From the IMG/VR virus record IMGVR_UViG_3300034956_000530, positions 1 through 39,737 of that record: DNA of 39,737 nt; one strand, written 5' to 3'. The position numbers were made by a program, and so were the translations under genes. The stretch comes from a virus. Below the pieces are notes generated by a model. It ran no database searches. It had not been told where the DNA came from and saw only the letters and a program-made list of their open reading frames with translations. Position 1 is the stretch's first letter; the number at the start of each line of letters is the position of its first letter. Below, piece by piece: positions 3,564 through 39,412 of the stretch.

Positions 3564-4475
3564 ATGAAAATTATTGACTATGATATCATCTATTTAAGTT
3601 ACGATGAACCAAACGCAGAAAAAAACTATGCAGACTTACTTACTAAAGCACCCTGGGCAAAGCGTGTACACGGTGTAGAAGGCAGCGATGCAGCACATAA
3701 AGCCTGTGCTAATTTAAGCGAAACAGATCGATTTATTACTGTTGACGGTGACAATATTGTACGACCTGGCTTTTTAGAACAAGTATTAGATATTCCACAA
3801 GGCAGTAATTTAGAATCTAGTGTTATTAGTTGGTGCGGTAAAAACGAAATTAATGGGTTAATGTACGGCAACGGCGGCATCAAATGTTGGCCTAAAGAAT
3901 ATGTGTTGCAGATGAAAACACACGAAAATGCAGATCCAGGGAATGTAGCAGCCCAAGTAGATTTTTGCTGGGACTTAAAGTATATTCAACAAAATAGTTG
4001 TTACTCAGATGTTCATAATAATGCTACTCCGCAGCAGGCTTGGCGAGCAGGGTTCCGTGAAGGTGTCAAAATGGCACTTGATAGCGGAGCAAAGCCTACT
4101 AAAGAACAGTTATTAAAAGGTCATTGGAAAAACTTACACAGACTTTGGATTTGGTTAATGATAGGTGCAGACGTAGAAAATGGCGACTGGGCTATATTAG
4201 GAGCAAGAGCAGGACTATATATGACAATGTGTACAGAATGGGACTTTGTCCAAGTTAGAGACTTTGAATACTTAAACGACTTGTGGAAAACTTCCTTTGC
4301 AGGCATCGAAGACATTGAATACGAAACAGGTACGTATGGCATTAAACTCATTAACGAGTTAGACACACCAATTGCAGAAACACCATTTGGTGCTCAACAA
4401 AGTAAATTCTTTAAAACAGTGTATCAAAATCCTAGTAGAAACTCTAGCCAACAGTTTGTGATTGATCCTGAATGA
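3564..4475 (+). CDS. Glycosyltransferase-like protein, larger paralogue
   Basis: 303 residues. The N-terminal region starts with a strand (DIIYLSY), then a Lys/Arg-rich loop containing RVHGVEG, and reaches VDGDN with Asp61 and Asp63, a DxD motif. The order (strand, RVHGVxG, DxD, GGIK) is repeated in the gene at 9060, making the two clear paralogues; this copy is longer, with an extra segment around residues 140-190 and a C-terminal extension of about 50 residues. Trp-rich helices in the middle could bind an acceptor. It is preceded by AGGAG at 3553-3557. Probably transfers a sugar in the same pathway as its neighbours; substrate unknown. Confidence 0.65.
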   Translation: MKIIDYDIIYLSYDEPNAEKNYADLLTKAPWAKRVHGVEGSDAAHKACANLSETDRFITVDGDNIVRPGFLEQVLDIPQGSNLESSVISWCGKNEINGLMYGNGGIKCWPKEYVLQMKTHENADPGNVAAQVDFCWDLKYIQQNSCYSDVHNNATPQQAWRAGFREGVKMALDSGAKPTKEQLLKGHWKNLHRLWIWLMIGADVENGDWAILGARAGLYMTMCTEWDFVQVRDFEYLNDLWKTSFAGIEDIEYETGTYGIKLINELDTPIAETPFGAQQSKFFKTVYQNPSRNSSQQFVIDPE

Positions 4476-7173: not shown

Positions 7174-7818
7174 ATGGCTAAGTTAATAGTAGCAGGTTGT
7201 TCAGTTAGTGATTATACTAATGTTAAGAAGGTATGGGGAGAATACCTTGCTGAACAATTAAATTATGAATATGTACATGAAGCAGCTGGGTGCGGATCAA
7301 ATTATCGTATGTGGAGAGTGTTAACAACTCATATACTTAACGGCAATATAACTCCTGACGATACAGTAATAGTACAATATACTACGCTAGAAAGAAATGA
7401 GTTTTGGTCACCGATAATTGAGGATGACTATTTACGAGATTTACAACATGACGGTAACATAATTAGATTTAAATCAGGGTCACATACATGGGCTAAAGGA
7501 TTTGAAAAAAAATTAATGAAATTATACGAACGTTTTATTAATGACGACTTTGAAAAAGAAAAGTTTGCTAATAATCATATGATGTTTCAATGTTTAGCAA
7601 AGGAATATAAAATAAAAAATTTATATTTTGTAAAATTAGGTGCATATGGTTTAGAAGATTTATTATTTTTACCTCAATATAAAAATAACTTTTTTAACTA
7701 TTCTAACATATTTGATAAAAGTGAAAATCACATAACAAATGATCGATATCATCTTAGTGACATAGGACATAAATTGCTTTCAACTATGATATATAATAAC
7801 ATTAAGGAATCTACATGA
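7174..7818 (+). CDS. SGNH-hydrolase-like protein
   Basis: 214 residues from ATG 7174, preferred over GTG 7165 because GGAAAG lies just upstream. Block I appears as AGCS (Ser10 the candidate nucleophile), a Gly/Asn block as GCGSN (39-43), and the C-terminal DxxH-like block as DRYH (Asp190, His193), followed by LSDIGH. Together they match the SGNH/GDSL esterase and acyltransferase fold. Members cleave or transfer acyl groups, often on polysaccharides. No signal peptide is visible, so it would act in the cytosol. One of seven such proteins in this window; its stop overlaps the sugar dehydrogenase ATG (7815-7818). Confidence 0.6.
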   Translation: MAKLIVAGCSVSDYTNVKKVWGEYLAEQLNYEYVHEAAGCGSNYRMWRVLTTHILNGNITPDDTVIVQYTTLERNEFWSPIIEDDYLRDLQHDGNIIRFKSGSHTWAKGFEKKLMKLYERFINDDFEKEKFANNHMMFQCLAKEYKIKNLYFVKLGAYGLEDLLFLPQYKNNFFNYSNIFDKSENHITNDRYHLSDIGHKLLSTMIYNNIKEST

Positions 7819-9053
7819 AAATTGGATTTATAGGAACGGGCAAATTAGGAATGCCCTGTGCAGAAGCAATTGCAAGCAACGGACACGAAGTTACGGGCTA
7901 TGATGTTGCAAAGCGTACTAGTCATCAAGTAAAAATGTTTTCGACTATCAAAGGCGCAGTCCAAGGCAGAGATATTGTATTTGTTGCAGTGCCTACTCCG
8001 CATGATCCGGACTATGATGGCAGAGCACCTACTGCGCACTTAGATCCAAAAGACTTTAATTACGATATTGTAAAGGATGTACTAGTAGAAGCAAACAAGC
8101 ATATGACACAAAATCAATTGCTTGTGCTTATTAGTACAGTACTACCTGGTACAACACGTAATCAGTTTGTTGACCTCGTGTCTAACACACGCTTTGTATA
8201 CAATCCTTACTTGATTGCAATGGGCAGTGTAGCATGGGATATGGTAAATCCAGAGATGGTAATGATTGGTACTGAAGATGGCAGTGCTACAGGTGATGCC
8301 AAAGAACTTGTAGACTTTTATAAAACTATAATGGAAAACAATCCACGCTATGAGATCGGTACTTGGGACGAATGCGAATGTATCAAAGTATTCTACAATA
8401 CGTTTATTAGTGCTAAAATAGGACTTGTAAACATGATACAGGATGTAGCGCAGCAACAGGGCAACATTAACGTAGACGTTGTTACAAGCGCCCTAGCGCA
8501 GTCTACGATGCGTATTATGGGTCCACAGTATATGAAAGCAGGTATGGGCGATGGAGGTGGATGTCATCCACGTGATAACATTGCACTACGCTACATGGCC
8601 GAAGAACTAGGCTTAGGTTATGACTTGTTTGATAGCATTATGAACGCCAGAGAAATACAAGCAAAGAATATTGCATTAAAATTAGTGCAACATGCAAATG
8701 AACATAATATGCAGATTGTTATTCATGGCAAAGCATACAAGCCAAACGTAGGATATTGCGATGGTAGTTACAGTTTACTGATTGGTCATTACTGTGAAGA
8801 GCAAGGGTTTGCACCTGTATATGTAGATCCACTAACAGGTGACGAGTTTGAGCCACTAGAGCCTTGTGTATTTTTACTAGCACACAGCGCCAGCACTACA
8901 TATAAGTATACTGGCAAAGATAGCGCAGACAAATTATACTGCGATATTCCTAACCGTAGCGTAGTAGTTGATCCGTGGCGCAATTATGTAAATGCAAATT
9001 GTACTGTAATTCATTACGGAAACACTAGACAATCAACTAAAAAGGTGTTATAA
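7815..9053 (+). CDS. UDP-glucose/GDP-mannose 6-dehydrogenase family protein
   Basis: 412 residues with the full domain order of the family. The N-terminal Rossmann motif is GTGKLG within residues 7-12, STVLPGTT lies at 108-115, a central helix has IKVFYNTFISAKIG (Lys191, Asn195), and GGGCHPRDN holds the catalytic Cys250. A C-terminal domain begins at GKAYKPN. The family oxidises C6 of a nucleotide sugar to a carboxylate in two NAD-dependent steps through a Cys thioester. HPRD replaces the common FPKD, so a changed substrate is possible. It overlaps the SGNH gene (ATGA). Visually less AT-rich than its neighbours. It would supply an acidic sugar such as a uronate. Confidence 0.88.
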   Translation: MKIGFIGTGKLGMPCAEAIASNGHEVTGYDVAKRTSHQVKMFSTIKGAVQGRDIVFVAVPTPHDPDYDGRAPTAHLDPKDFNYDIVKDVLVEANKHMTQNQLLVLISTVLPGTTRNQFVDLVSNTRFVYNPYLIAMGSVAWDMVNPEMVMIGTEDGSATGDAKELVDFYKTIMENNPRYEIGTWDECECIKVFYNTFISAKIGLVNMIQDVAQQQGNINVDVVTSALAQSTMRIMGPQYMKAGMGDGGGCHPRDNIALRYMAEELGLGYDLFDSIMNAREIQAKNIALKLVQHANEHNMQIVIHGKAYKPNVGYCDGSYSLLIGHYCEEQGFAPVYVDPLTGDEFEPLEPCVFLLAHSASTTYKYTGKDSADKLYCDIPNRSVVVDPWRNYVNANCTVIHYGNTRQSTKKVL

Positions 9054-9059
9054 TAAGAT

Positions 9060-9740
9060 ATGTATGATATAGTCTTTATAAGTTACCAAGAATCTAGTGC
9101 AGATGCTAATTACGCTGCACTAAAAGAACGCTTTCCTATTGCTACCCGTGTGCATGGAGTTAAAGGAATACATCAAGCGCACATTCAAGCAGCCAAACAA
9201 GCATTTACTCCTATGATATGGATAGTTGATGCAGATGCACATATTGTAGATGACTTTGACTTTAGTTATATTCCCAACCGCAACAATAGAGATGCAGTAC
9301 ATGTATGGCGCAGTTGTAACCCCATTAATGATTTAGAATATGGATACGGCGGAATAAAATTATTTCCAAGACTACATACTATTAATATGGACACATCTAT
9401 GCCAGACATGACTACAAGTATTAGCAACAAATTTGTTGCTGTAAAAAAAGTGTCAAACATCACAGCGTTTAACACAGGAGAATTTGAAACTTGGAAAAGT
9501 GCATTTAGAGAATGTTGTAAGTTAAGTTCAAAAGTAATTGGCAGACAAAAAGACGATGAAACTAACACTCGACTACACACCTGGTGCACAGTAGGCGCCG
9601 ACAGAGCTTACGGAACCTACGCTATTGCAGGTGCAAAAGCTGGCGCTGTATACGGAACTCGTAACCAAGGCAACATAGATGCACTTAAAATGATCAACAA
9701 CTTTGAATGGTTAAAGGAAAAATTTGATGGAACCATATGA
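9060..9740 (+). CDS. Glycosyltransferase-like protein, shorter paralogue
   Basis: 226 residues. It repeats the plan of the gene at 3564: N-terminal strand DIVFISY, then RVHGVKG (30-36), then a hydrophobic strand ending in VDADA with Asp57 and Asp59 (DxD), then YGGIKLF. It lacks the inserted segment and most of the C-terminal extension of that paralogue. A C-terminal WCTVGAD...AIAGAKAG run matches IGAD...LGARAG in the larger copy. A GT-A type sugar transfer is likely. No strong Shine-Dalgarno is present close to the ATG; AAGG lies about 14 bases upstream. Placement right after the sugar dehydrogenase suggests that it may use the oxidised nucleotide sugar, which is inference. Confidence 0.65.
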   Translation: MYDIVFISYQESSADANYAALKERFPIATRVHGVKGIHQAHIQAAKQAFTPMIWIVDADAHIVDDFDFSYIPNRNNRDAVHVWRSCNPINDLEYGYGGIKLFPRLHTINMDTSMPDMTTSISNKFVAVKKVSNITAFNTGEFETWKSAFRECCKLSSKVIGRQKDDETNTRLHTWCTVGADRAYGTYAIAGAKAGAVYGTRNQGNIDALKMINNFEWLKEKFDGTI

Positions 9741-10800
9741 ACTACTAGATAGATTTGAACTGCTATATCCGACTAACACAAAGTTAGCAGATTTACGTAG
9801 AACTTATATTGATCAAGACCTAACAAGCATTTTTCGTTTATCTAATACTGATGACAATTTGCGTAAAGCAGTAGTTGAGCAAAATTTACATAGTATTTTT
9901 AGACTACTAGAAGGAGAAGTTAATGGAGAACTTGAAGAATTTCGCAAAGCAGTAGTTGAGCAAAACTTACATAGTATTTTTAGACTATCGTCAGACGAAA
10001 ATGAAAATCTAAGAAAAGCAGTAGTTGAGCAAAACTTACATAGTATTTTTAGATTAGTTGATGACGAAGATTTGCGAAAACTTGTATTAGAAGATAATAT
10101 TTGGAAACTTTGGCCTATACTTGATCGTTATGTAGATACACAGTTTGTTGCAGCATTTAAAAACTTCTTTGTTAATGAAACTAAAATATGGAACGATTCT
10201 TTTAGTCGAGGACAAATAAAAAGTAAGCAGTGGGTTATCAAAGAGCTTACAAAATTAAATTTAGATTTAGGTACAGTTTTCTTGTGTGCAGGATGGTATG
10301 CTACCCTTGCTACTATGTTATTTGAAAGCAAAGTTACAGTTGGCAAAATACGTAGTTTTGATATTGATCCGTCGTGCGCTAAAATTGCCGAAGTATTTAA
10401 TAAACCTTGGTTCGAGGAAGATTGGCGCTTCAAGGCAAGTACAGTTGACATTATGGATTTTGAGTGGACAGATGTTCCTGCACCAAGCGACGGAACAATG
10501 GGCAATTTCTATTACATGACATCTGCTTCCGACAAACACATACAAATGAAAGATAATCCCGACACAATTATAAACACAAGTTGTGAACACATTGCTAATT
10601 TTGATGAATGGTATAATAATATACCCGACGGAAAATTAGTTATTTTACAAAGCAATGATTATTTTGAAATAGAAGAACATGTAAACTGTCATAAAACTAT
10701 TTCTCAGTTTAGTAAAAGCACTCCAATGAAAGAAACACTTTTTGAAGGGCAGCTCTTTTTACCAGATTATACAAGGTTTATGAAAATTGGATATAAGTAA
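9727..10800 (+). CDS. Repeat-bearing SAM methyltransferase-like protein
   Basis: 357 residues from ATG 9727. The N-terminal third contains five copies of a 16-residue unit: 23-38 (degenerate), 45-60, 72-87 and 95-110 (near identical, consensus LRKAVVEQNLHSIFRL), and 116-131 (degenerate). They are separated by acidic linkers and look like short amphipathic helices. The second half resembles a Rossmann methyltransferase: a glycine-poor motif I (VFLCAGWYATLAT, 184-196), an acidic FDID at 211-214 ending strand 2, and a later strand with VDIMDF. Domain I lacks the usual GxGxG, so catalysis is uncertain. The repeats may bind a partner or oligomerise. It overlaps the preceding gene by 14 bases. Confidence 0.6.
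   Translation: MEPYELLDRFELLYPTNTKLADLRRTYIDQDLTSIFRLSNTDDNLRKAVVEQNLHSIFRLLEGEVNGELEEFRKAVVEQNLHSIFRLSSDENENLRKAVVEQNLHSIFRLVDDEDLRKLVLEDNIWKLWPILDRYVDTQFVAAFKNFFVNETKIWNDSFSRGQIKSKQWVIKELTKLNLDLGTVFLCAGWYATLATMLFESKVTVGKIRSFDIDPSCAKIAEVFNKPWFEEDWRFKASTVDIMDFEWTDVPAPSDGTMGNFYYMTSASDKHIQMKDNPDTIINTSCEHIANFDEWYNNIPDGKLVILQSNDYFEIEEHVNCHKTISQFSKSTPMKETLFEGQLFLPDYTRFMKIGYK
9859..10056 (+). repeat. Three near-identical 48-base in-frame repeats
   Basis: Units at 9859-9906, 9940-9987 and 10009-10056 each encode one 16-residue repeat of the methyltransferase-like protein. The 39-base core from AAAGCAG to TTTTTAGA differs at a single C/T position among the three copies, whereas the linkers differ fully in sequence and length. 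Such conservation at the DNA level points to recent duplication or ongoing gene conversion. Confidence 0.9.
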
Positions 10801-11011
10801 TTTTACAATTCGGCAACTACAAACTGAAAGTGCTAGGGCACTTGCTACAATACAAGCTACTAACAATAATATACATCAGTTTAATAAACAAGCACATCAT
10901 AATAGCCACAAATGGTATGCTGCTGTAATTAAATGGTATATAGAACAATACGGTGACTTGCCTAGCAAAGTAGGACCTGGTAAGGATATAAAGTTGGTAT
11001 TTAATGACTAA
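10787..11011 (+). CDS. Small hypothetical protein with TTG start
   Basis: A 74-residue, mostly helical protein that is Asn/Gln/His-rich at first (around residues 10-40) and ends in a short basic/acidic tail. No Cys, no known motif. The only plausible start in frame is TTG 10787, with AAGG about 10 bases upstream inside the end of the methyltransferase-like gene. Its end overlaps the following SGNH gene by 8 bases, which favours it being real and coupled. At this size it could be a carrier, adaptor or peptide substrate for the neighbouring enzymes; nothing in the sequence decides between these. Confidence 0.5.
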   Translation: MDISNFTIRQLQTESARALATIQATNNNIHQFNKQAHHNSHKWYAAVIKWYIEQYGDLPSKVGPGKDIKLVFND

Positions 11012-11717
11012 AACAATTTTTGTAGTAGGATGTAGTTATAGCCATCATGACCGCTATGTTGAGCCTAAACAAACCTGGCCATGTCTATTACAAGATGATT
11101 TAAAATGTAAAATAATAAATTGTAGTGTACCTGGAAATAGCAATTTAAGCTATTTTTATAGGTTAAAGGAACTTGAATATCAATTTGGAAAACCAGATAA
11201 AGTTATTGTACAGCTTACGGGTCCTGACAGAGTATTTTTACATCGAAAAAATGTTCCTATATGTAATATAACTAAACGCAAAGGTAAAGATTACTATTAC
11301 GATATTTATGATAACGCATACAGTGAAGCAGGAATATCAATAACACCTAGCAACATAACTAAACGATTATTTAATGAGCGTATACAGGAATATTATAACA
11401 TCACACGAAAAGATTTAGTAACGTTTTTTCGCTCTTTTACTTCTTATGATAATGCAAACTGGCTCAATTTAAAAGAAATATTATTAATTGATTCGTATTT
11501 TAAAGATGTAGTTTTCTTTTCCTGGAACTTAAATTATAATTACATTGCTCTTGACGAGCCTTGGGCAAACGAAAATGATATCAATTATATAGGATCTATT
11601 AAAAATATGATTTCTGCTGAAGAATTTAATAACTATTCGCATATTCCGGAAAAGGATGATCACTTTAATGTAGCCGGTCATTATGCAGTAAAAGAATTAA
11701 TAAAACCGTATGTATAG
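11004..11717 (+). CDS. SGNH-hydrolase-like protein
   Basis: 237 residues. Block I is VVGCSYS with Ser11 as candidate nucleophile after a hydrophobic strand; PGNSN supplies the Gly and Asn expected for the oxyanion hole; the C-terminus has DDHFNVAGH with Asp218 or Asp219 and His220 as the Asp-His pair. This is the complete motif set for an SGNH/GDSL fold. Fairly rich in aromatic and basic residues, no signal peptide. It directly precedes and overlaps a class B radical SAM gene by 8 bases, one of several SGNH/radical SAM pairings here. Probably an acyl esterase or transferase acting on the pathway product. Confidence 0.65.
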   Translation: MTKTIFVVGCSYSHHDRYVEPKQTWPCLLQDDLKCKIINCSVPGNSNLSYFYRLKELEYQFGKPDKVIVQLTGPDRVFLHRKNVPICNITKRKGKDYYYDIYDNAYSEAGISITPSNITKRLFNERIQEYYNITRKDLVTFFRSFTSYDNANWLNLKEILLIDSYFKDVVFFSWNLNYNYIALDEPWANENDINYIGSIKNMISAEEFNNYSHIPEKDDHFNVAGHYAVKELIKPYV

Positions 11718-12777
11718 ATATAATGATATAAGAGCAATACATCTTGAAGTAACACAAAACTGTCAAGCTAGTTGTCCTATGTGTGATCGAAATATGAATG
11801 GCAAAGGTATTAATCCACATATTAATTTAGACGAACTTAGTTTAGGAGATTGTAAAAAGATATTCCTTCCGGAGTTTATTGCACAGTTAGATACAATGTT
11901 TATGTGCGGTAACTTAGGCGATCCTATTGTTGCTAAAGACACATTAGAAATATTCAAATACTTTAGAGCGCATAGCCCTACAATGTGGTTAAGTATGAAT
12001 ACCAATGCCGGCGCAAAGAGTGTTACTTGGTGGGCAGAGCTTGCAGATGTTATTAATAAAAAGGGTGCAGTTATATTCAGTGTAGACGGATTGCGTGATA
12101 CTAATCATCTTTATCGGCAAGGAGTAAACTGGGACAACGTAGAGCGTAACATGCAAGCGTTTATTAATGCTGGAGGTAGAGCACGTTGGGACTTTTTAAT
12201 CTTTGAACACAATCAGCATCAAGTAGAAGAAGCAGAGGCACTTGCCAATGCTTGGGGTTGTGAAAAATTTATGAAGAAAAAAACAGGAAGGTTTATTACC
12301 GGCAAAGGTGAAAAAAAGCAATCACACCAGGCTGTTGATAAAAAAGGTAATAACTCGGCAGAGATTAAAAAACCTAAAAAAGAATATACCAACAACGCAC
12401 TTTCGAAACAAGATATAATACTTAACAAGTACGGAAGCATGGATGCTTACTACAACGCAGCCCCTATTATTTGTAAAGTAAAGAAAGATAATAGCTTATT
12501 CATAACAGCAGAAGGACTAGCTTTGCCTTGTTGCTGGACTGCTGGCCGCATGTATAAATGGTGGCATAAAGATCCTAAAGTAGAGCAAATATGGGACTTT
12601 ATACCCGATATAAGCGCCCTACAAGCACGTAACGGCCTAGAGGCAGTATTTGATACAGGCATCTTTGACCGCATACAAGCAAGCTGGAATAAGCCTAGTT
12701 GCGGTGACGGCAAACTAAAAGTATGTGCTATGAAGTGCGGTGCTGAGTTTGATCCGTTTGCGGAGCAGTTTAAATGA
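11710..12777 (+). CDS. Radical SAM protein with C-terminal SPASM-like segment (class B)
   Basis: 355 residues. CQASCPMC (Cys18, Cys22, Cys25) is the radical SAM motif, followed by CGNLGDP (about 66-72) where GGEP would be expected. VDGLRDTNHLYR (125-136) marks the middle of the barrel and is shared with the other class B genes. The C-terminus has the auxiliary-cluster Cys pattern: C255, CC at 274-275, C331, C339 and C343. A Lys/Gln-rich insert at about 188-230 is unique to this copy. SPASM-type enzymes modify peptides or sugars using extra 4Fe-4S clusters. The start overlaps the SGNH stop; the end overlaps the next ATG. Confidence 0.9.
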   Translation: MYRYNDIRAIHLEVTQNCQASCPMCDRNMNGKGINPHINLDELSLGDCKKIFLPEFIAQLDTMFMCGNLGDPIVAKDTLEIFKYFRAHSPTMWLSMNTNAGAKSVTWWAELADVINKKGAVIFSVDGLRDTNHLYRQGVNWDNVERNMQAFINAGGRARWDFLIFEHNQHQVEEAEALANAWGCEKFMKKKTGRFITGKGEKKQSHQAVDKKGNNSAEIKKPKKEYTNNALSKQDIILNKYGSMDAYYNAAPIICKVKKDNSLFITAEGLALPCCWTAGRMYKWWHKDPKVEQIWDFIPDISALQARNGLEAVFDTGIFDRIQASWNKPSCGDGKLKVCAMKCGAEFDPFAEQFK

Positions 12778-15930: not shown

Positions 15931-16883
15931 ATAAATTAGTAAAAATAAAAACTAGAAATAATATACTTGTAGTAGATTGGATTCTTAGCAATGTATGTAA
16001 TTTCAAATGCACATACTGCACACCGGATAGTAATGGCGGTGACTTGTATTGGCCTGACATTGAACAGTGTGAAACTGTGGTTCGCCGCATTACTGAACAA
16101 AGTACTCATGATCATAGAATATATACTATATTAGGTGGCGAACCGACTGTATGGAAAAACTTTACAAGACTTAGTGAAATAATTAAAGAGGTTGATCCTA
16201 ACAGTGTTGTAAACATTTTAACTAACGGTAGCAGAACAATTAAGTGGTGGAATAGAACTAAGACTTATTTGGATAAAGTAAGTCTTAGTTATCATCATCA
16301 AGAAGCAGATGTTGATCACACAATTAAAGTTGTCAATGCAATACAAGACGACTGTCAAACAAATATTCAAATGCTTATGGATATTAATGCATGGGATAAG
16401 TGTGTAGGTATATTTGAAAAACTTCGTGATAATACAGTTGTGCCCATACAAATTAAAAAACTACAAGTTGAATTTGGGCAACGAGATTGGATGGTATATA
16501 GTGATGAGCAACGACAATGGATGATTGATGCCCACAAAACTACTGCTAATCGTCCTAGTACAAAACGCAACAAGACTAGTTTGGGGATCGACTGTTACTA
16601 TGATGACGGCACAGTAACACAAGAAAACAATCACGATTTGATACAAGCAGGCAAAAATAAGTTTGAAGGCTGGACATGTAATATCGGTAGAGATTTAGTT
16701 GTAATAAAGGCTAACGGTGATGTTGTTCCTGCTAATGCATGTAATAACAAAGTAATAATGGGCAATATAAAAACATCACCGGAAACTGTTAACTTATTAA
16801 CTGAACCTATTATTTGTGCATATAAAGAATGTACATGCGGCAGCGATATAGAAATTGATAAACAAATTCAAGTCACAAATTAA
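15927..16883 (+). CDS. Radical SAM protein with C-terminal GWxCN-type Cys segment (class C)
   Basis: 318 residues from ATG 15927 (ATGA overlap), not the upstream in-frame TTG 15909. Radical SAM Cys24, Cys28 and Cys31 (CNFKCTYC) and GGEP at 70-73. The C-terminal end has a distinct Cys set: EGWTCN (C251), C272, C297, C302 and C304 in an ECTC arrangement, then GSD. Spacing from the first Cys is 21, 46, 51 and 53 residues. The gene at 36990 has the same set at the other end of the protein with spacing 22, 46, 51 and 53. These Cys probably hold an auxiliary cluster or zinc. Its product may act with the adjacent class A enzymes. Confidence 0.88.
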   Translation: MNKLVKIKTRNNILVVDWILSNVCNFKCTYCTPDSNGGDLYWPDIEQCETVVRRITEQSTHDHRIYTILGGEPTVWKNFTRLSEIIKEVDPNSVVNILTNGSRTIKWWNRTKTYLDKVSLSYHHQEADVDHTIKVVNAIQDDCQTNIQMLMDINAWDKCVGIFEKLRDNTVVPIQIKKLQVEFGQRDWMVYSDEQRQWMIDAHKTTANRPSTKRNKTSLGIDCYYDDGTVTQENNHDLIQAGKNKFEGWTCNIGRDLVVIKANGDVVPANACNNKVIMGNIKTSPETVNLLTEPIICAYKECTCGSDIEIDKQIQVTN

Positions 16884-16914
16884 AAAACAAAAAACACTAG
16901 GAAATAAGTACAGT

Positions 16915-18318
16915 ATGACAGAAAATAAATATCCCTCAGAAACGTTTTGCTTACTACCTTGGGTACATCTAAGCACACGACCAGATGGCAGTATGCGAGT
17001 ATGCTGTACAGCAAACGCTAGTAGTGTAGGTGCTACTAACGATAAAGAACACGGCGGCCAAGTTGGTATTCTTAAAACTGACGACGGCAAACCAAATAAT
17101 TTAAATGTAAGTGATTTTGAAACTGCTTGGAACAGCAACTATATGAAAAATGTTCGCAAGCAAATGTTAGCTGGCGAAAAACCGCCTAGTTGTTTAAAAT
17201 GCTTTAAAGAAGAAGCCGCAGGACATAATTCAAAACGTATGTGGGAAACTGCATATTGGAGTGAGAGAGTTGATGTAGAAAAAATCCTACAAGACACAAA
17301 TGAAGATGGAAGTGTTCCGCCTAACTTAGCATACATTGATTTGCGGTTTGGCACCAAGTGTCAATTAGCATGTGTTATGTGTAGTCCGCATGATAGTAGT
17401 GGCTGGATTAAAGATTATAAAGCAATCTTTCCTGAAGTTAAGAACGAATCACTCAAAGAGATTATGCAATGGGATAACAAAGGCAGTACTAATGGTAGTA
17501 GTTACAACTGGCATAAGCAGAATCCAACGTTTTGGAAACAGTTTTATGAGCAAATGCCTAGTATGCAACAGATTTACTTTGCAGGCGGCGAAAGTCTTAT
17601 TATTGAAGAACATTACGAAATACTTGAACACGCAATTAAAATGGGTTATGCAAAAGACTTAGAACTACGTTACAACTCAAACGGAGTTGAATGGCGCGAC
17701 GATTTATTTGACTTGTGGAAAGAATTTAAAATAGTACGTTTTCATTACAGCATAGACAGTATTAAAGAAATGAATGACTATATTCGTTACCCTAGTACTT
17801 GGTCACGTCAAGAAGAAGTATTTCATATTTTAGATAATGAAACTAGTGACAATGTTGAAATAACTGTTGCTTGTGCAGTTCAAGCACTTAATATATATTA
17901 TATTCCAGACTTTATTAAATGGAAAGTTCAACAAAAATTTCGTAAAATAAATATGTGGCCCTTTGGTGCTGGCATGATAAACTATCATTTTGTATACTGG
18001 CCTGCCCATTTAAATGTAAAATCATTACCTGCTTGGTTTAAAGCAGAATGCCGTCGTAAGTATGAAGAATTTTATCCTTGGATAGAAGAGAACTGGGAAT
18101 TATGTATTCCGTCTTGGCACAAAGACAAAGTTGATTATGACAAATGGCGCAACAGTCCGTACGGAATGAAACGTTTAGATGGTATGTTAAGCTTTATGGA
18201 AAGTGAAGACTGGAGTCAACGATTACCTGAGATGAAAGAATTTTTAGATTTGTGTGATAAGCAACGTGGAATATCTTTTGCTGAAACATTTCCTGAAATG
18301 AAAGATATATTCAAATGA
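16915..18318 (+). CDS. Radical SAM protein, N-terminal twitch type (class A)
   Basis: 467 residues from ATG 16915, chosen because its FCLLPW start aligns with sister proteins; an ORF reading from 16855 would run into the previous gene, and AGGA lies at 16899-16902. The N-terminal segment has C12, CC at 30-31 and CLKC at 93-96; the typical AWNSNY...RKQMLAGE run between them is at 71-88. Radical SAM Cys149, Cys153 and Cys156 (CQLACVMC). The SAM-contact motif is GGES instead of GGEP. It is the longest class A copy, with a C-terminal Trp-rich region. It directly precedes two SGNH genes, with which it overlaps. Confidence 0.9.
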   Translation: MTENKYPSETFCLLPWVHLSTRPDGSMRVCCTANASSVGATNDKEHGGQVGILKTDDGKPNNLNVSDFETAWNSNYMKNVRKQMLAGEKPPSCLKCFKEEAAGHNSKRMWETAYWSERVDVEKILQDTNEDGSVPPNLAYIDLRFGTKCQLACVMCSPHDSSGWIKDYKAIFPEVKNESLKEIMQWDNKGSTNGSSYNWHKQNPTFWKQFYEQMPSMQQIYFAGGESLIIEEHYEILEHAIKMGYAKDLELRYNSNGVEWRDDLFDLWKEFKIVRFHYSIDSIKEMNDYIRYPSTWSRQEEVFHILDNETSDNVEITVACAVQALNIYYIPDFIKWKVQQKFRKINMWPFGAGMINYHFVYWPAHLNVKSLPAWFKAECRRKYEEFYPWIEENWELCIPSWHKDKVDYDKWRNSPYGMKRLDGMLSFMESEDWSQRLPEMKEFLDLCDKQRGISFAETFPEMKDIFK

Positions 18319-30529: not shown

Positions 30530-30568
30530 ATGACTGAAGATTTAAAGTGGAGATCCTATGCAAGATGA
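30530..30568 (+). CDS. 12-residue leader ORF copying the start of the next gene
   Basis: ATG 30530 opens a 12-codon frame (MTEDLKWRSYAR, stop TGA) with AAGGG at 30519-30523, 6 bases upstream, a better ribosome site than the downstream gene has. Its first seven residues are identical to those of the radical SAM gene at 30577, and the DNA is repeated with one change in 23 bases. The two frames differ (offset 47 bases). It may be a translated leader that couples or tunes expression, or a remnant of a partial duplication. Peptide function is unknown. Confidence 0.45.
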   Translation: MTEDLKWRSYAR

Positions 30569-30599
30569 GAAATGGTATGACTGAAGATTTAAAATGGAG
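30530..30599 (+). repeat. 23-base direct repeat at gene start
   Basis: Copies at 30530-30552 and 30577-30599 (ATGACTGAAGATTTAAARTGGAG split as 17 and 6 bases around the single variable base). Each begins with an ATG; the first gives the leader ORF and the second the start of the radical SAM gene. The repeat is spaced 47 bases, so a slippage or recombination event would delete the leader. Confidence 0.85.
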
Positions 30600-31692
30600 T
30601 AATTATGACTTTACTAAGATACCCTTTGACGACATCGTTAGTGTTGGTCAGCGTACTTTGCTGTATCGTGATTTATTTACTGTCAGCTGGCTACTTGGTC
30701 GCTTCTGTAACTACAAATGTAGCTACTGTTGGCCTTACGCCCGCAGTGATCGTAAAGACCACCGTCCTACCGAGCTCTGTCTTAAAACAATAGATGAAAT
30801 AAAAAGACAAGCTCGCGGAAACGGATTTAACAGTTTTCATTTTAGTTTAAGTGGCGGCGAACCTACTTTTCATCCAGGATACTTGGACATACTAAAACAC
30901 CTTGCTGATGATGTAGATAGCACTAATTATACTAGTGTGCATATGACAACAAACATGTCCCGTAATATGAAGTGGCATGAAGAATATGTAGAAGCAGTTA
31001 AGCCGTTCCATCGTGCTAGTATTACAGCAAGTTTGCACACAGAGCATGTAAACAGCATTGAGAAGATGCAAGACTTTGCAGACAAGTTAATCTTCTGTCA
31101 AGAGCATGATGTACAAGTTACGATCAACATGGTGATGGTTCCAGAGTGGTTTGACCGTGATTGGGAGAACGCATTGTTCTTTCACGAGCAAGGCATAAAT
31201 GTAACGCTAAAGCCTCAAAGCGACCCTACAGCAAGCCGAGTCGTAGATGGATATAACACAGAAGACTTAAAAAAGTTATACAACGGTATGCCACAAATGG
31301 CGTATACCGAAGTTAAACGTAAATGGGCCAATCGTCCAAAGCAAAACTTTGATTTGCCTCCGAACACACATGGTTCAAACGATAAAAGTGTTCCGTGGCA
31401 CATGGCAGTAGAGTTAGAAGATTCAAAGGGCGATAAGTATTATATAGACCAAGCAGAACGGTTTAATGCCTTTAATTTTAATAATTTTGAAGGGTGGAAC
31501 TGTAACGCAGGATATAGTGGTATTATTATACGTGAGCCAGACGGTTCAGTAAAACGTAGTTATTCTTGTCACGATGTGCCTCTTGGTAATATCGAAACAG
31601 GGTTTCAGTTGTTTAACGCACCTAAGACGTGTATAACTAAAAGCTGCGTAAGTAGTGCCGACTCAAAGATTCCAAAGAGGAAAATTACATGA
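30577..31692 (+). CDS. Radical SAM protein with C-terminal GWxCN-type Cys segment (class C)
   Basis: 371 residues from ATG 30577; the GTG at 30547 is in frame but adds ten unlike residues. Radical SAM Cys44, Cys48 and Cys51 (CNYKCSYC) and SGGEPT at 92-97. The C-terminal class C segment starts EGWNCN with C309, then C331, C352 and C357; a final Cys present in the 15927 copy is missing here (SCVSS instead of ECTC), so its metal site may differ. It follows the leader ORF with the repeated start. Its 3' end overlaps the B12-binding-type radical SAM gene by 4 bases. Radical chemistry is inferred; substrate unknown. Confidence 0.88.
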   Translation: MTEDLKWSNYDFTKIPFDDIVSVGQRTLLYRDLFTVSWLLGRFCNYKCSYCWPYARSDRKDHRPTELCLKTIDEIKRQARGNGFNSFHFSLSGGEPTFHPGYLDILKHLADDVDSTNYTSVHMTTNMSRNMKWHEEYVEAVKPFHRASITASLHTEHVNSIEKMQDFADKLIFCQEHDVQVTINMVMVPEWFDRDWENALFFHEQGINVTLKPQSDPTASRVVDGYNTEDLKKLYNGMPQMAYTEVKRKWANRPKQNFDLPPNTHGSNDKSVPWHMAVELEDSKGDKYYIDQAERFNAFNFNNFEGWNCNAGYSGIIIREPDGSVKRSYSCHDVPLGNIETGFQLFNAPKTCITKSCVSSADSKIPKRKIT

Positions 31693-38002: not shown

Positions 38003-39412
38003 TTAGTTTAAGTCTACCCAAGCACTACCAGTGTAACCTTGGAACTTAGTACCTGTTGTGTTAAATATCATCATACCTGCTACTGGTGATGTAATAGCTG
38101 CATCGCGAGCTGTGTTATCAGCATATACGCCTGGCTTAATAGCACCTTGTACATCTAACTTGGCAGCTGGAGTAACAGTTCCAATTCCTACGTCACCTTC
38201 AGATAACGCCAGTAGTTTGCTATCTGCAACTACGCCGTCGGCACCATTAAAGATCCATAAAAAATCTTCATTGCCTGAAATAATATTACTATCAGTTCTG
38301 CCAGTAGAATCATCCTTGCCAAATCTAATTTGGCCATATCTTCGATTAGTACCTGTTAAGTCTGAAGCAGATGTGCGTAATAACGATAATGATGTATATT
38401 GATCATTTGATTCCATTTGTATAAAGTTTGTTGTAGCCGCAGCCGGAGTTGTTATTCTTAGTAGACCGTCTGATACAATACGTCTTGGATATATATCGCC
38501 AAGTTGTCCGTCTATTACTAAACTACTATTATCAAGGAATACACTACCTTTAATGTCACCTGTTACGTCACCAGTTACGTCACCTATTAGAGATCCGTAT
38601 AGAGTATTATTAGTGCCGTCTATTATCAACGAACTATTATCGCCAAATACTGAACCTGTTACATCGCCGTCAAACGTGCCTGTGTGTGCTCCAGATGCAT
38701 TACCAGTTACGTCACCAGTAAATGTCCCAAATATTTGCTCCGCAGGAATAAGTCCTGTAGAAGCATCAAATACTACAGTACTATCGTCTGCAATAAGATC
38801 GCCTTGAATTCTCCCAACAGTAAGTTGGTTTTCAACATTAAGTTGATTAATCCATGCTTCGTTCCAGGCCTTTGTATTTGATCCTAAGTTAATAGTATTG
38901 TTTCCATCAGGAACTAAGCTACTATTAACTTCACCGTCAATACCAACAACACCACTTACTCCAGTAAGACCACTTCCGTCTCCAATAAACGCTGTAGCTG
39001 TAACATTACCAATAATATTAACGTTTCCGGTACCTGTAATGTTGTTGCCATTAAGATCTAACCCACCGCCTAATTGCGGAGTAGTATCACTTATTACACT
39101 AGTAAATGCATCTGAAATACCAGTAAGACCACTTCCGTCTCCAATAAACGCTGTAGCTGTAACATTACCAATAATATTAACGTTTCCGGTACCATTAATG
39201 TTATTACCGTTTAAATCTAATTGTCCACCTAGTTGCGGTGTATTATCAGCTAGTAATGAGTCAATTGTATTTGAAATACCAGTAATACCGCCAGCAGTAG
39301 CACCGTCACCGACATATAATTGTTTAGTATCTGTTGTAAATACTAATTCGCCCTCTAATGGGGTAATTGCTATTCGTTCTGCATTTGTGCCGCGTCTAAC
39401 TTGTAAAGCCAT
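38003..39412 (-). CDS. Tail-fibre-like structural protein with repeats
   Basis: 469 residues. The N-terminus (MALQVRRGTN to VGDGATAGG, about 1-42) is a type found at the start of many marine T4-like phage fibre proteins. Then two copies of a 43-residue unit (57-99 and 110-152) with TPQLGGxLDLNGNNI, GTGNVNIIGN and AFIGDGSGL. Gly/Asp/Thr-rich beta repeats (GDVTG) follow to about 290, and the C-terminal part has LRITTPAA and GYTGSAWVDLN, a common fibre ending. AGGAGT (39419-39424) is 6 bases before ATG, and a CATAAATA late element is upstream. Role: probable receptor-facing fibre or attached decoration. Confidence 0.78.
   Translation of the reverse strand: MALQVRRGTNAERIAITPLEGELVFTTDTKQLYVGDGATAGGITGISNTIDSLLADNTPQLGGQLDLNGNNINGTGNVNIIGNVTATAFIGDGSGLTGISDAFTSVISDTTPQLGGGLDLNGNNITGTGNVNIIGNVTATAFIGDGSGLTGVSGVVGIDGEVNSSLVPDGNNTINLGSNTKAWNEAWINQLNVENQLTVGRIQGDLIADDSTVVFDASTGLIPAEQIFGTFTGDVTGNASGAHTGTFDGDVTGSVFGDNSSLIIDGTNNTLYGSLIGDVTGDVTGDIKGSVFLDNSSLVIDGQLGDIYPRRIVSDGLLRITTPAAATTNFIQMESNDQYTSLSLLRTSASDLTGTNRRYGQIRFGKDDSTGRTDSNIISGNEDFLWIFNGADGVVADSKLLALSEGDVGIGTVTPAAKLDVQGAIKPGVYADNTARDAAITSPVAGMMIFNTTGTKFQGYTGSAWVDLN
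38961..39034 (-). repeat. 74-base direct repeat, copy 1 (fibre gene)
   Basis: Identical over 74 bases to 39120-39193, start-to-start 159 bases (53 codons), in frame. It encodes the conserved part of the second 43-residue fibre unit. The surrounding bases differ by many synonymous changes, so the identity of this core suggests recent conversion. Confidence 0.9.
39120..39193 (-). repeat. 74-base direct repeat, copy 2 (fibre gene)
   Basis: Second copy of the 74-base identical block, encoding the conserved part of the first 43-residue fibre unit. Both copies are in the same orientation, so recombination between them would remove or add one unit of 53 residues without shifting the frame. Confidence 0.9.

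Follow-up and report, generated by a model that had tools for sequence, protein, structure and literature searches.

The window, a 39,737-nt stretch of viral DNA, encodes a methyltransferase-like protein carrying a variable arm of stacked two-helix repeats, a protein type that is common to marine phages, several of them T4-type. As its gene adjoins, and in some phages is fused to, genes for sugar-transferase-like proteins, it is probably part of a pathway that assembles sugar chains.

Results

An array of short repeats precedes a predicted methyltransferase fold

The solenoid-methyltransferase gene (9727..10800, plus strand; 357 residues) was called as an ORF with an ATG start, and an alternative TTG lies one codon ahead of the ATG at 9727. 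Residues 23-131 of its product form an array of five units, three near-identical cores flanked by an N-cap and a C-cap, with cores starting at residues 23, 45, 72, 95 and 116. Unit 1, the N-cap core LRRTYIDQDLTSIFRL (residues 23-38), is encoded at 9793..9840, the canonical cores of units 2, 3 and 4 at 9859..9906, 9940..9987 and 10009..10056, and unit 5, the C-cap core LRKLVLEDNIWKLWPI (residues 116-131), at 10072..10119, all on the plus strand. The common core of units 2-4 is [LF]RKAVVEQNLHSIFRL; at the DNA level these three cores constitute one direct-repeat family, differing on average at 4.7 of 48 nt. They are joined by linkers of 6, 11, 7 and 5 residues, giving periods of 22, 27, 23 and 21, and the long linker after unit 2, LEGEVNGELEE, has counterparts in many relatives. 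Presumably because of the unequal linker lengths, the array is absent from the output of Tandem Repeats Finder. Units were called at a score of at least 9 with a matrix derived from units of the family; the top score among 54,540 shuffled positions was 4.4, a comparison that amounts to a consistency check, as the matrix was trained on the same families.

A sequence-only reading of this DNA had described 9727-10800 as a methyltransferase-like domain fused to a tandem repeat of five copies, three of them nearly identical in DNA, and the ORF, the units and the predicted fold bear this out. Its 16-residue repeat unit holds for the conserved core, but not for the full unit of 21-27 residues, which includes a variable linker. 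Across the 86 distinct proteins of the family described below, 110 of 331 spacings equal 21 residues and none is shorter; judged from these sequences, the full unit consists of a 16-residue core and a linker of variable length.

With a 20-sequence family alignment as input, AlphaFold predicted the window protein at a pLDDT of 89.3 and a pTM of 0.84, as a series of units of two short helices each, followed by an alpha/beta domain. The repeat blocks appear as ordered helices in this model (pLDDT 84-95), and residues ~151-357 (10177..10797, plus strand) adopt a class I methyltransferase fold. In structural comparison by VIA, the top match of this domain was NodS (3ofk, 3ofj; Z 15.6, 2.7 Å, 169 residues), with the next three rows within 1 Z; a Z of at least 8 was reached by 996 of 1000 Foldseek-preselected chains, and the matches listed are class I methyltransferases. 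Given such near-ties, the fold does not tell which substrate is used. The window protein has no Pfam methyltransferase match, and the motif I signature GxGxG is not present in the domain, most family members having LCAGWYATLA or a similar sequence there. Divergent forms of motif I do occur in genuine class I SAM-dependent methyltransferases, so that the missing GxGxG lowers our confidence in activity, but not in the fold, and the earlier description of a divergent Rossmann methyltransferase without this motif stands. By its fold, the C-terminal domain would be a putative methyltransferase. For the solenoid, an ankyrin-like geometry is suspected by eye; a solenoid-only AlphaFold model of the 12-unit relative L003 was poor (pLDDT 63.8), and Foldseek and VIA searches with this low-confidence model yielded a best Z of 2.9 over 39 residues.

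Neither the repeat nor its protein has a name

Searches of Pfam, NCBIfam and PHROGs left the window protein without a useful name, and ankyrin, TPR, HEAT, ARM, LRV and Sel1 repeats did not exceed the Pfam gathering score in P0001, L003, L136, L068, L074 and L150. The many weak Pfam matches of L003 all fall below cut-off and are probably driven by its repeats. Two functionally unannotated families, PHROG 5925 and PHROG 17056, match the L003 repeat region (E 2.6e-11 and 1.9e-6); the window protein, however, is unmatched by them at E 1, and repeat-on-repeat matches can be spurious. Sequence searches of the PDB with the family profile, the fused protein L150 and the GT profile returned nothing credible. 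In tblastn searches against 50,697 named phages, the window solenoid found no match and the L003 solenoid four weak matches to CII only, at E 0.2 or worse; the neighbouring genes GT2 and p74 (see below) and fused L150 were likewise unmatched in this collection. The sole named-phage relative at E 0.01 is a 'putative methyltransferase' of Pelagibacter phage Mosig (QOI69054.1; 27.8% identity, 56% of the query covered), whose gene neighbours are annotated as molybdenum cofactor enzyme, carbamoyltransferase and aminotransferase, with neither a solenoid nor a GT2 match in the surrounding 24.5 kb. Among the papers listed by searches of open-licence literature, titles and abstract beginnings name neither the repeat nor the cassette. 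Two outcomes that the sequence-only reading had listed as counting against it did not materialise: no Pfam family above cut-off turns the repeat into a known domain with a function, and copies are found in many related phages.

The arm varies from 0 to 13 units in one family of proteins

A first viral scan yielded 36 relatives. Scanning with the core pattern alone, whatever the protein, we retrieved at least 120 stretches and, leaving out L016, which was known from the first scan, 119 core-bearing ORFs; among the matches listed, 112 of these 119 contain the methyltransferase, and the other seven meet the sequence end first. Matches listed for the solenoid profile were confined to one ORF per record in 16 chosen records (14 viral). 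On this sequence evidence, the repeat appears to be tied to a single protein type, rather than being a stray motif.

The 146 loci with a methyltransferase match provided 128 complete ORFs and, with incomplete and identical ORFs dropped, 86 distinct proteins, including that of the window. Counting caps, their arrays comprise 0 (four proteins), 2 (one), 3 (18), 4 (13), 5 (33), 6 (four), 7 (five), 8 (three), 10 (one), 11 (two), 12 (one) or 13 units (one). The repeat unit is shorter than common read lengths. That these counts are an assembly artefact is unlikely, with identical long proteins present in separate assemblies (L003 and L034; L005, L006 and L007), even if these separately numbered assemblies may share one site.

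The gene sits in a cassette with glycosyltransferase-like genes

The start of the solenoid-methyltransferase gene is overlapped by GT2 (9060..9740, plus strand), which encodes a glycosyltransferase-like protein with a DxD motif (D57, D59); its paralogue GT1 (3564..4475, plus strand) is 31% identical. Both aspartates are invariant in 20 of 20 aligned GT2/GT1-type sequences. Window GT2 has no Pfam match, while glycosyltransferase family 2 is matched weakly in 6 of the 20 GT members, and the best sub-threshold hit, that of L074, has E 1.7e-4 and 22.1 bits against a cut-off of 27. It is on the invariant DxD and these sub-threshold matches that we call GT2 and GT1 glycosyltransferase-like.

A GT2-like match lies upstream on the same strand for 78 of the 86 distinct proteins, within ~100 nt of open frame for 72 and at 0.9-2.0 kb for six; five of the remaining eight are themselves fused to GT-like domains, two lack GT2 (L064, L036) and one was not assessable. 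All five fusions (L044, L068, L074, L084, L150) are single chains in the order GT1-GT2-solenoid-methyltransferase. In four loci (L077, L087, L101, L152), GT2 is separated from the solenoid-methyltransferase gene by a further methyltransferase copy, which is divergent. Besides the window, 83 distinct loci were compared, with GT2 present in 80, p74 in 67 and rSAM-B in 65. A UDP-glucose/GDP-mannose dehydrogenase-like gene (7815-9053, E 2e-18) directly 5' of GT2 lies outside the core cassette, as just 7 of the 83 other loci have it.

On the 3' side, the gene for the nameless 74-residue protein p74 (10787..11011, plus strand) has its apparent TTG start within the end of the methyltransferase gene. 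Relatives of p74 are encoded by 478 viral stretches, and among 69 distinct p74 ORFs, 64 overlap the methyltransferase gene, four are separated from it by 0.5-1.1 kb and one is elsewhere. In the best 80 of the 478 loci, which are those nearest the window and thus biased towards it, p74 is always (80/80) directly 3' of the methyltransferase, a solenoid is detectable in 76 and rSAM-B is adjacent in 38. The latter, a radical SAM-like enzyme (11710..12777, plus strand), is a frequent member of the cassette; it scores 24.3 bits with Pfam Radical_SAM, not reaching the cut-off of 29.5, and matches a PHROG radical SAM family at E 5.7e-19. An SGNH-like gene, recognised by eye, lies between p74 and rSAM-B in the window. 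Median identity to the window is 75% for p74, 70% for rSAM-B and 65% for GT2.

These observations could be taken to mean that p74 is a ribosomal peptide, gripped by the solenoid and modified by the methyltransferase, GT2 and the radical SAM enzymes in a RiPP-like manner, as p74 is short, overlaps the methyltransferase gene, has rSAM-B adjacent in many loci and surpasses GT2 and rSAM-B in median identity. Yet p74 is conserved along its full length (77% mean column identity) without a variable core, five of the 69 ORFs do not adjoin the methyltransferase, and 4 of the best 80 (of 478) accompany methyltransferases without a detectable solenoid; moreover, p74 occurs in only 2 of 77 loci of a bacterial and archaeal genome collection (L158, L159), neither of them Bdellovibrionales-type. 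We judge a substrate role of p74 to be quite unlikely.

Relatives without an array also retain cassette neighbours: GT2 in L033, p74 and rSAM-B in L256, and p74 in L268. This bears on a further, weaker proposal of the sequence-only reading, that the repeats are a built-in substrate of the fused or neighbouring enzymes. Such a borosin-like arrangement would agree with the fusion of a methyltransferase fold to a peptide repeated almost identically, and with radical SAM genes nearby, but it sits badly with cores predicted with high confidence to be ordered helices and with cassette neighbours that persist where there is no array. In borosin-type precursors, a flexible C-terminal core peptide reaches the active site, whereas the array described here is N-terminal and predicted to be folded, and the methyltransferase fold runs to the C-terminus. 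We regard this proposal as highly improbable.

The window resembles a hypervariable host recognition island

Two more radical SAM genes of the window, rSAM-C (16855..18318, plus strand; radical SAM/SPASM) and rSAM-A (30547..31692, plus strand; Pfam E 6.8e-16), are 57-61% and 56-65% identical, respectively, to genes in the bacterial loci L163, L165 and L169. Between 4507 and 37994, the window holds a dense radical SAM cluster: 11 of 20 scanned neighbours match PF04055 at E 0.01, ten of them above its cut-off, the gene at 30547-31692 matches it also, and by eye other radical SAM look-alikes are interleaved with SGNH-hydrolase-like proteins.

The T4-type major capsid protein gp23 (PF07068) was found above cut-off in 9 of 17 chosen records; it was unseen in the other eight, which include the 39.7-kb window and may be fragments. 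One end gene of the window (38003-39412) has 53 residues in common with a baseplate wedge annotation, and the gene at the other end is unmatched. Inside the former lies a 159-nt tandem repeat of 2.1 copies (38961-39289). In content, the window resembles the host recognition cluster of pelagimyophages, a large hypervariable island of marine T4-type phages that holds tail fibres, glycosyltransferases and radical SAM gene cassettes (PMC7029224), and it looks like such an island itself, although the word 'methyltransferase' occurs nowhere in the main text of that paper.

Array length changes often, and units are probably under constraint

On a tree built from the last 205 residues, with unsettled bootstrap and some long branches, unit-count classes require 32 changes, compared to a shuffled mean of 46.9. 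The class of 6-8 units forces at least 8 changes, a value equalled by 40 of 500 label shuffles, and is hence hardly clustered. The window and L001 have five and seven units, respectively, despite 91% nucleotide identity of their methyltransferases.

Silent differences between canonical cores amount to 0.17-0.23 of same-residue codons within the proteins of the window (three pairs), L001, L003 and L005, and to 0.36-0.59 in seven others, some represented by one pair only; over 63 proteins, the within-protein range is 0.06-0.67, a spread implying that some arrays were recently duplicated or converted, while others are old. Between proteins, values for six of them range from 0.16 to 0.60, with 0.31 for the window against L001 and 0.29 against L003. 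As the difference between L001 and L003 (0.16) is not above that within either protein, homogenisation is not phage-specific for this pair. By eye, the codon for E7 is GAG in all three canonical window cores, but in 0 of 15 in L001 and L003.

Frequent shifts of unit-number class and the persistence of arrayless forms would be expected if the array were a near-neutral product of slippage and recombination on a fixed methyltransferase, its length being inconsequential. Units at a silent difference of at least 0.40, however, still have 44-83% of core residues in common, which suggests purifying selection on the units and renders a near-neutral origin improbable.

We examined this apparent constraint in 169 'old' pairs, that is within-protein unit pairs with a silent difference of at least 0.4; since units were chosen by matrix similarity, conservation in this set is inflated. 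Most often identical are F14 (0.98), R15 (0.96), N9 (0.95) and R2 (0.89), followed by E7 (0.79), K3 (0.75), S12 (0.70), L1 (0.66) and A4 (0.65), while H11 (0.51) and position 8 (0.21) vary, as do the hydrophobic positions 5, 6, 10, 13 and 16 (0.21-0.44). Sequence conservation of this kind at polar positions would be in keeping with a single job common to all units, but the residues may be structural.

One such job could be the reading of a polymer with a repeating structure, such as an acidic glycan during its growth, with one element bound by an identical polar surface on every unit and copy number limiting length in the manner of a ruler. The identity of the polar residues R2, K3, E7, N9, S12 and R15 in 0.70-0.96 of old pairs, in contrast to 0.21-0.44 at hydrophobic positions, would agree with this, as would the span of 0-13 units, and a ruler role has been proposed for the helical arrangement of WbdD (PMC3482155). 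Against it, the matrix-based choice of units inflates conservation, identity understates that of hydrophobic positions, where I, L and V interchange, and the pattern is not strictly polar: position 8 and H11 vary, whereas the non-polar F14, L1 and A4 are kept. The polar residues may serve the structure, as salt bridges or caps, and 33 of 86 proteins have exactly five units, so that we regard polymer reading as unlikely, if worth keeping in mind. Its more elaborate form we consider improbable: a conserved R/E/N/R surface would bind one polymer element per unit of 21-residue period, phages would adjust how long a methyl-capped surface glycan becomes, or how it is patterned, by gaining or losing units, and p74 and the radical SAM partners would be a dedicated module that stems from, or is common to, a pathway of Bdellovibrionales-type bacteria.

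Related methyltransferase loci occur in bacteria and archaea

The bacterial and archaeal genome collection contains methyltransferase homologues at 77 loci, accompanied by GT2 in five, rSAM-B in six, p74 in two and part of the solenoid query in two. The p74-bearing L158 and L159 may derive from phage contigs that binning assigned to bacteria, as perhaps may L168.

Nine loci on MAG contigs of Bdellovibrionales, Bdellovibrionia or Bacteriovoracaceae make up what we call the Bdellovibrionales-type set. Cassette genes lie beside the methyltransferase in four of them (L163, L165, L166, L169), and the flanks of the other five (L160, L161, L162, L173, L234) contain none; p74 is matched in none of the nine. 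L163, L165 and L169 have homologues of rSAM-A, -B and -C (40-65% identity), L163 and L166 have GT2, and L166 also has GT1. The cassette loci look bacterial, as L163 sits on a 936 kb contig and, in L165, a glycosyltransferase family 2 gene adjoins the methyltransferase, with a glycosyl hydrolase family 3 gene near. They are possibly a cellular version of the pathway.

The Bacteriovoracaceae homologue in L161 (4260-5009) has a different, LRxAFLE-like repeat in its N-terminal region, with copies ~42 residues apart. Homology of the N-terminal helical regions of L161 and L162 to the phage array was considered, but not established, with hhalign probabilities of 0.7% and 0.2% (unrelated control 0.1%) and a lone 7-residue stretch, in L161, scoring above 95% of shuffles.

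Rhizobiales-type homologues are abundant, and their neighbours were scanned at two loci, in Rhizobium (L207) and Methylocystis (L227). At least two GT28-type or GT group 1 genes lie beside the methyltransferase in both, those of L227 comprising one GT group 1 and two GT28-type ORFs on the minus strand. Both loci also contain ABC permease genes of the oligopeptide type, opposite these genes across the methyltransferase or at a greater distance, so these loci are not glycan-only. In a Thermoplasmata MAG (L233, 4008-5498), a radical SAM-like region (27.2 bits, under the cut-off of 29.5) precedes a methyltransferase of the same family in one chain.

Discussion

The explanation that best accommodates these results is a glycan-pathway methyltransferase that works in a phage glycan assembly line and is docked to its partners by the solenoid. 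We give it somewhat less than an even chance, the limiting element being the docking and not the glycan link. The C-terminal domain would, probably, methylate a sugar or glycan intermediate in a SAM-dependent manner, while the N-terminal array, a capped alpha-solenoid of two-helix units with 21 residues plus loop insertions, would act as a docking arm that keeps the methyltransferase complexed with the GT2-like protein, with p74 and rSAM-B perhaps part of the same docked complex. Duplication and loss of units would lengthen or shorten the arm, recombination would partly homogenise its units, and the resulting changes in length would alter reach or binding surface between phages. What the sequences and models themselves provide is the anatomy of the protein, the predicted folds, the confinement of the repeat to one protein type, gene order and fusions, the variation in copy number and the silent-site homogenisation of some arrays; methyl transfer, the glycan as acceptor, the docked complex and any role for the length of the arm are our inference. 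Of the roles offered by the sequence-only reading, that of a scaffold or partner-binding array fits best, given the ordered hairpins of the model and the adjacent or fused GT-like domains, and it retains the standing of an interpretation. Gene adjacency within a hypervariable island, on the other hand, is a weak sign of a physical complex, and the result that weighs most against this explanation is that the arm is dispensable to the cassette, four of the 86 proteins having no units at all.

The module brings together gene types that annotation handles separately. Common in viral metagenomes, as the 478 p74 stretches attest, and nearly missing from named phages, it represents a function that is widespread in marine phages but unannotated. 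It also provides one enzyme in naturally occurring versions whose arms have 0-13 units, making the relation between arm length and product length directly testable, while the Bdellovibrionales-type counterpart hints at a cellular setting for a related pathway.

NodS, the top structural match, is an N-methyltransferase that acts on a sugar; at 11% identity, and with many other class I methyltransferases within 1-2 Z, this match implies no common substrate. A possible functional parallel is WbdD of E. coli O9a, a kinase/methyltransferase that terminates O-antigen chains and whose helical C-terminal region recruits the glycosyltransferase WbdA (PMC3482155). Both proteins combine a methyltransferase of a glycan pathway (for the window protein, a putative one) with a non-catalytic helical extension, the recruitment of a glycosyltransferase being WbdD's feature in that account (PMC3482155). 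Their architectures differ, as WbdD has its methyltransferase at the N-terminus, together with a kinase and a coiled coil at the C-terminus, whereas the window protein starts with a tandem solenoid and, unlike WbdD, has no kinase match in Pfam at E 1. By analogy, the window protein possibly works like WbdD, with a helical extension that would hold a methyltransferase close to its glycosyltransferase, while not being a member of that family.
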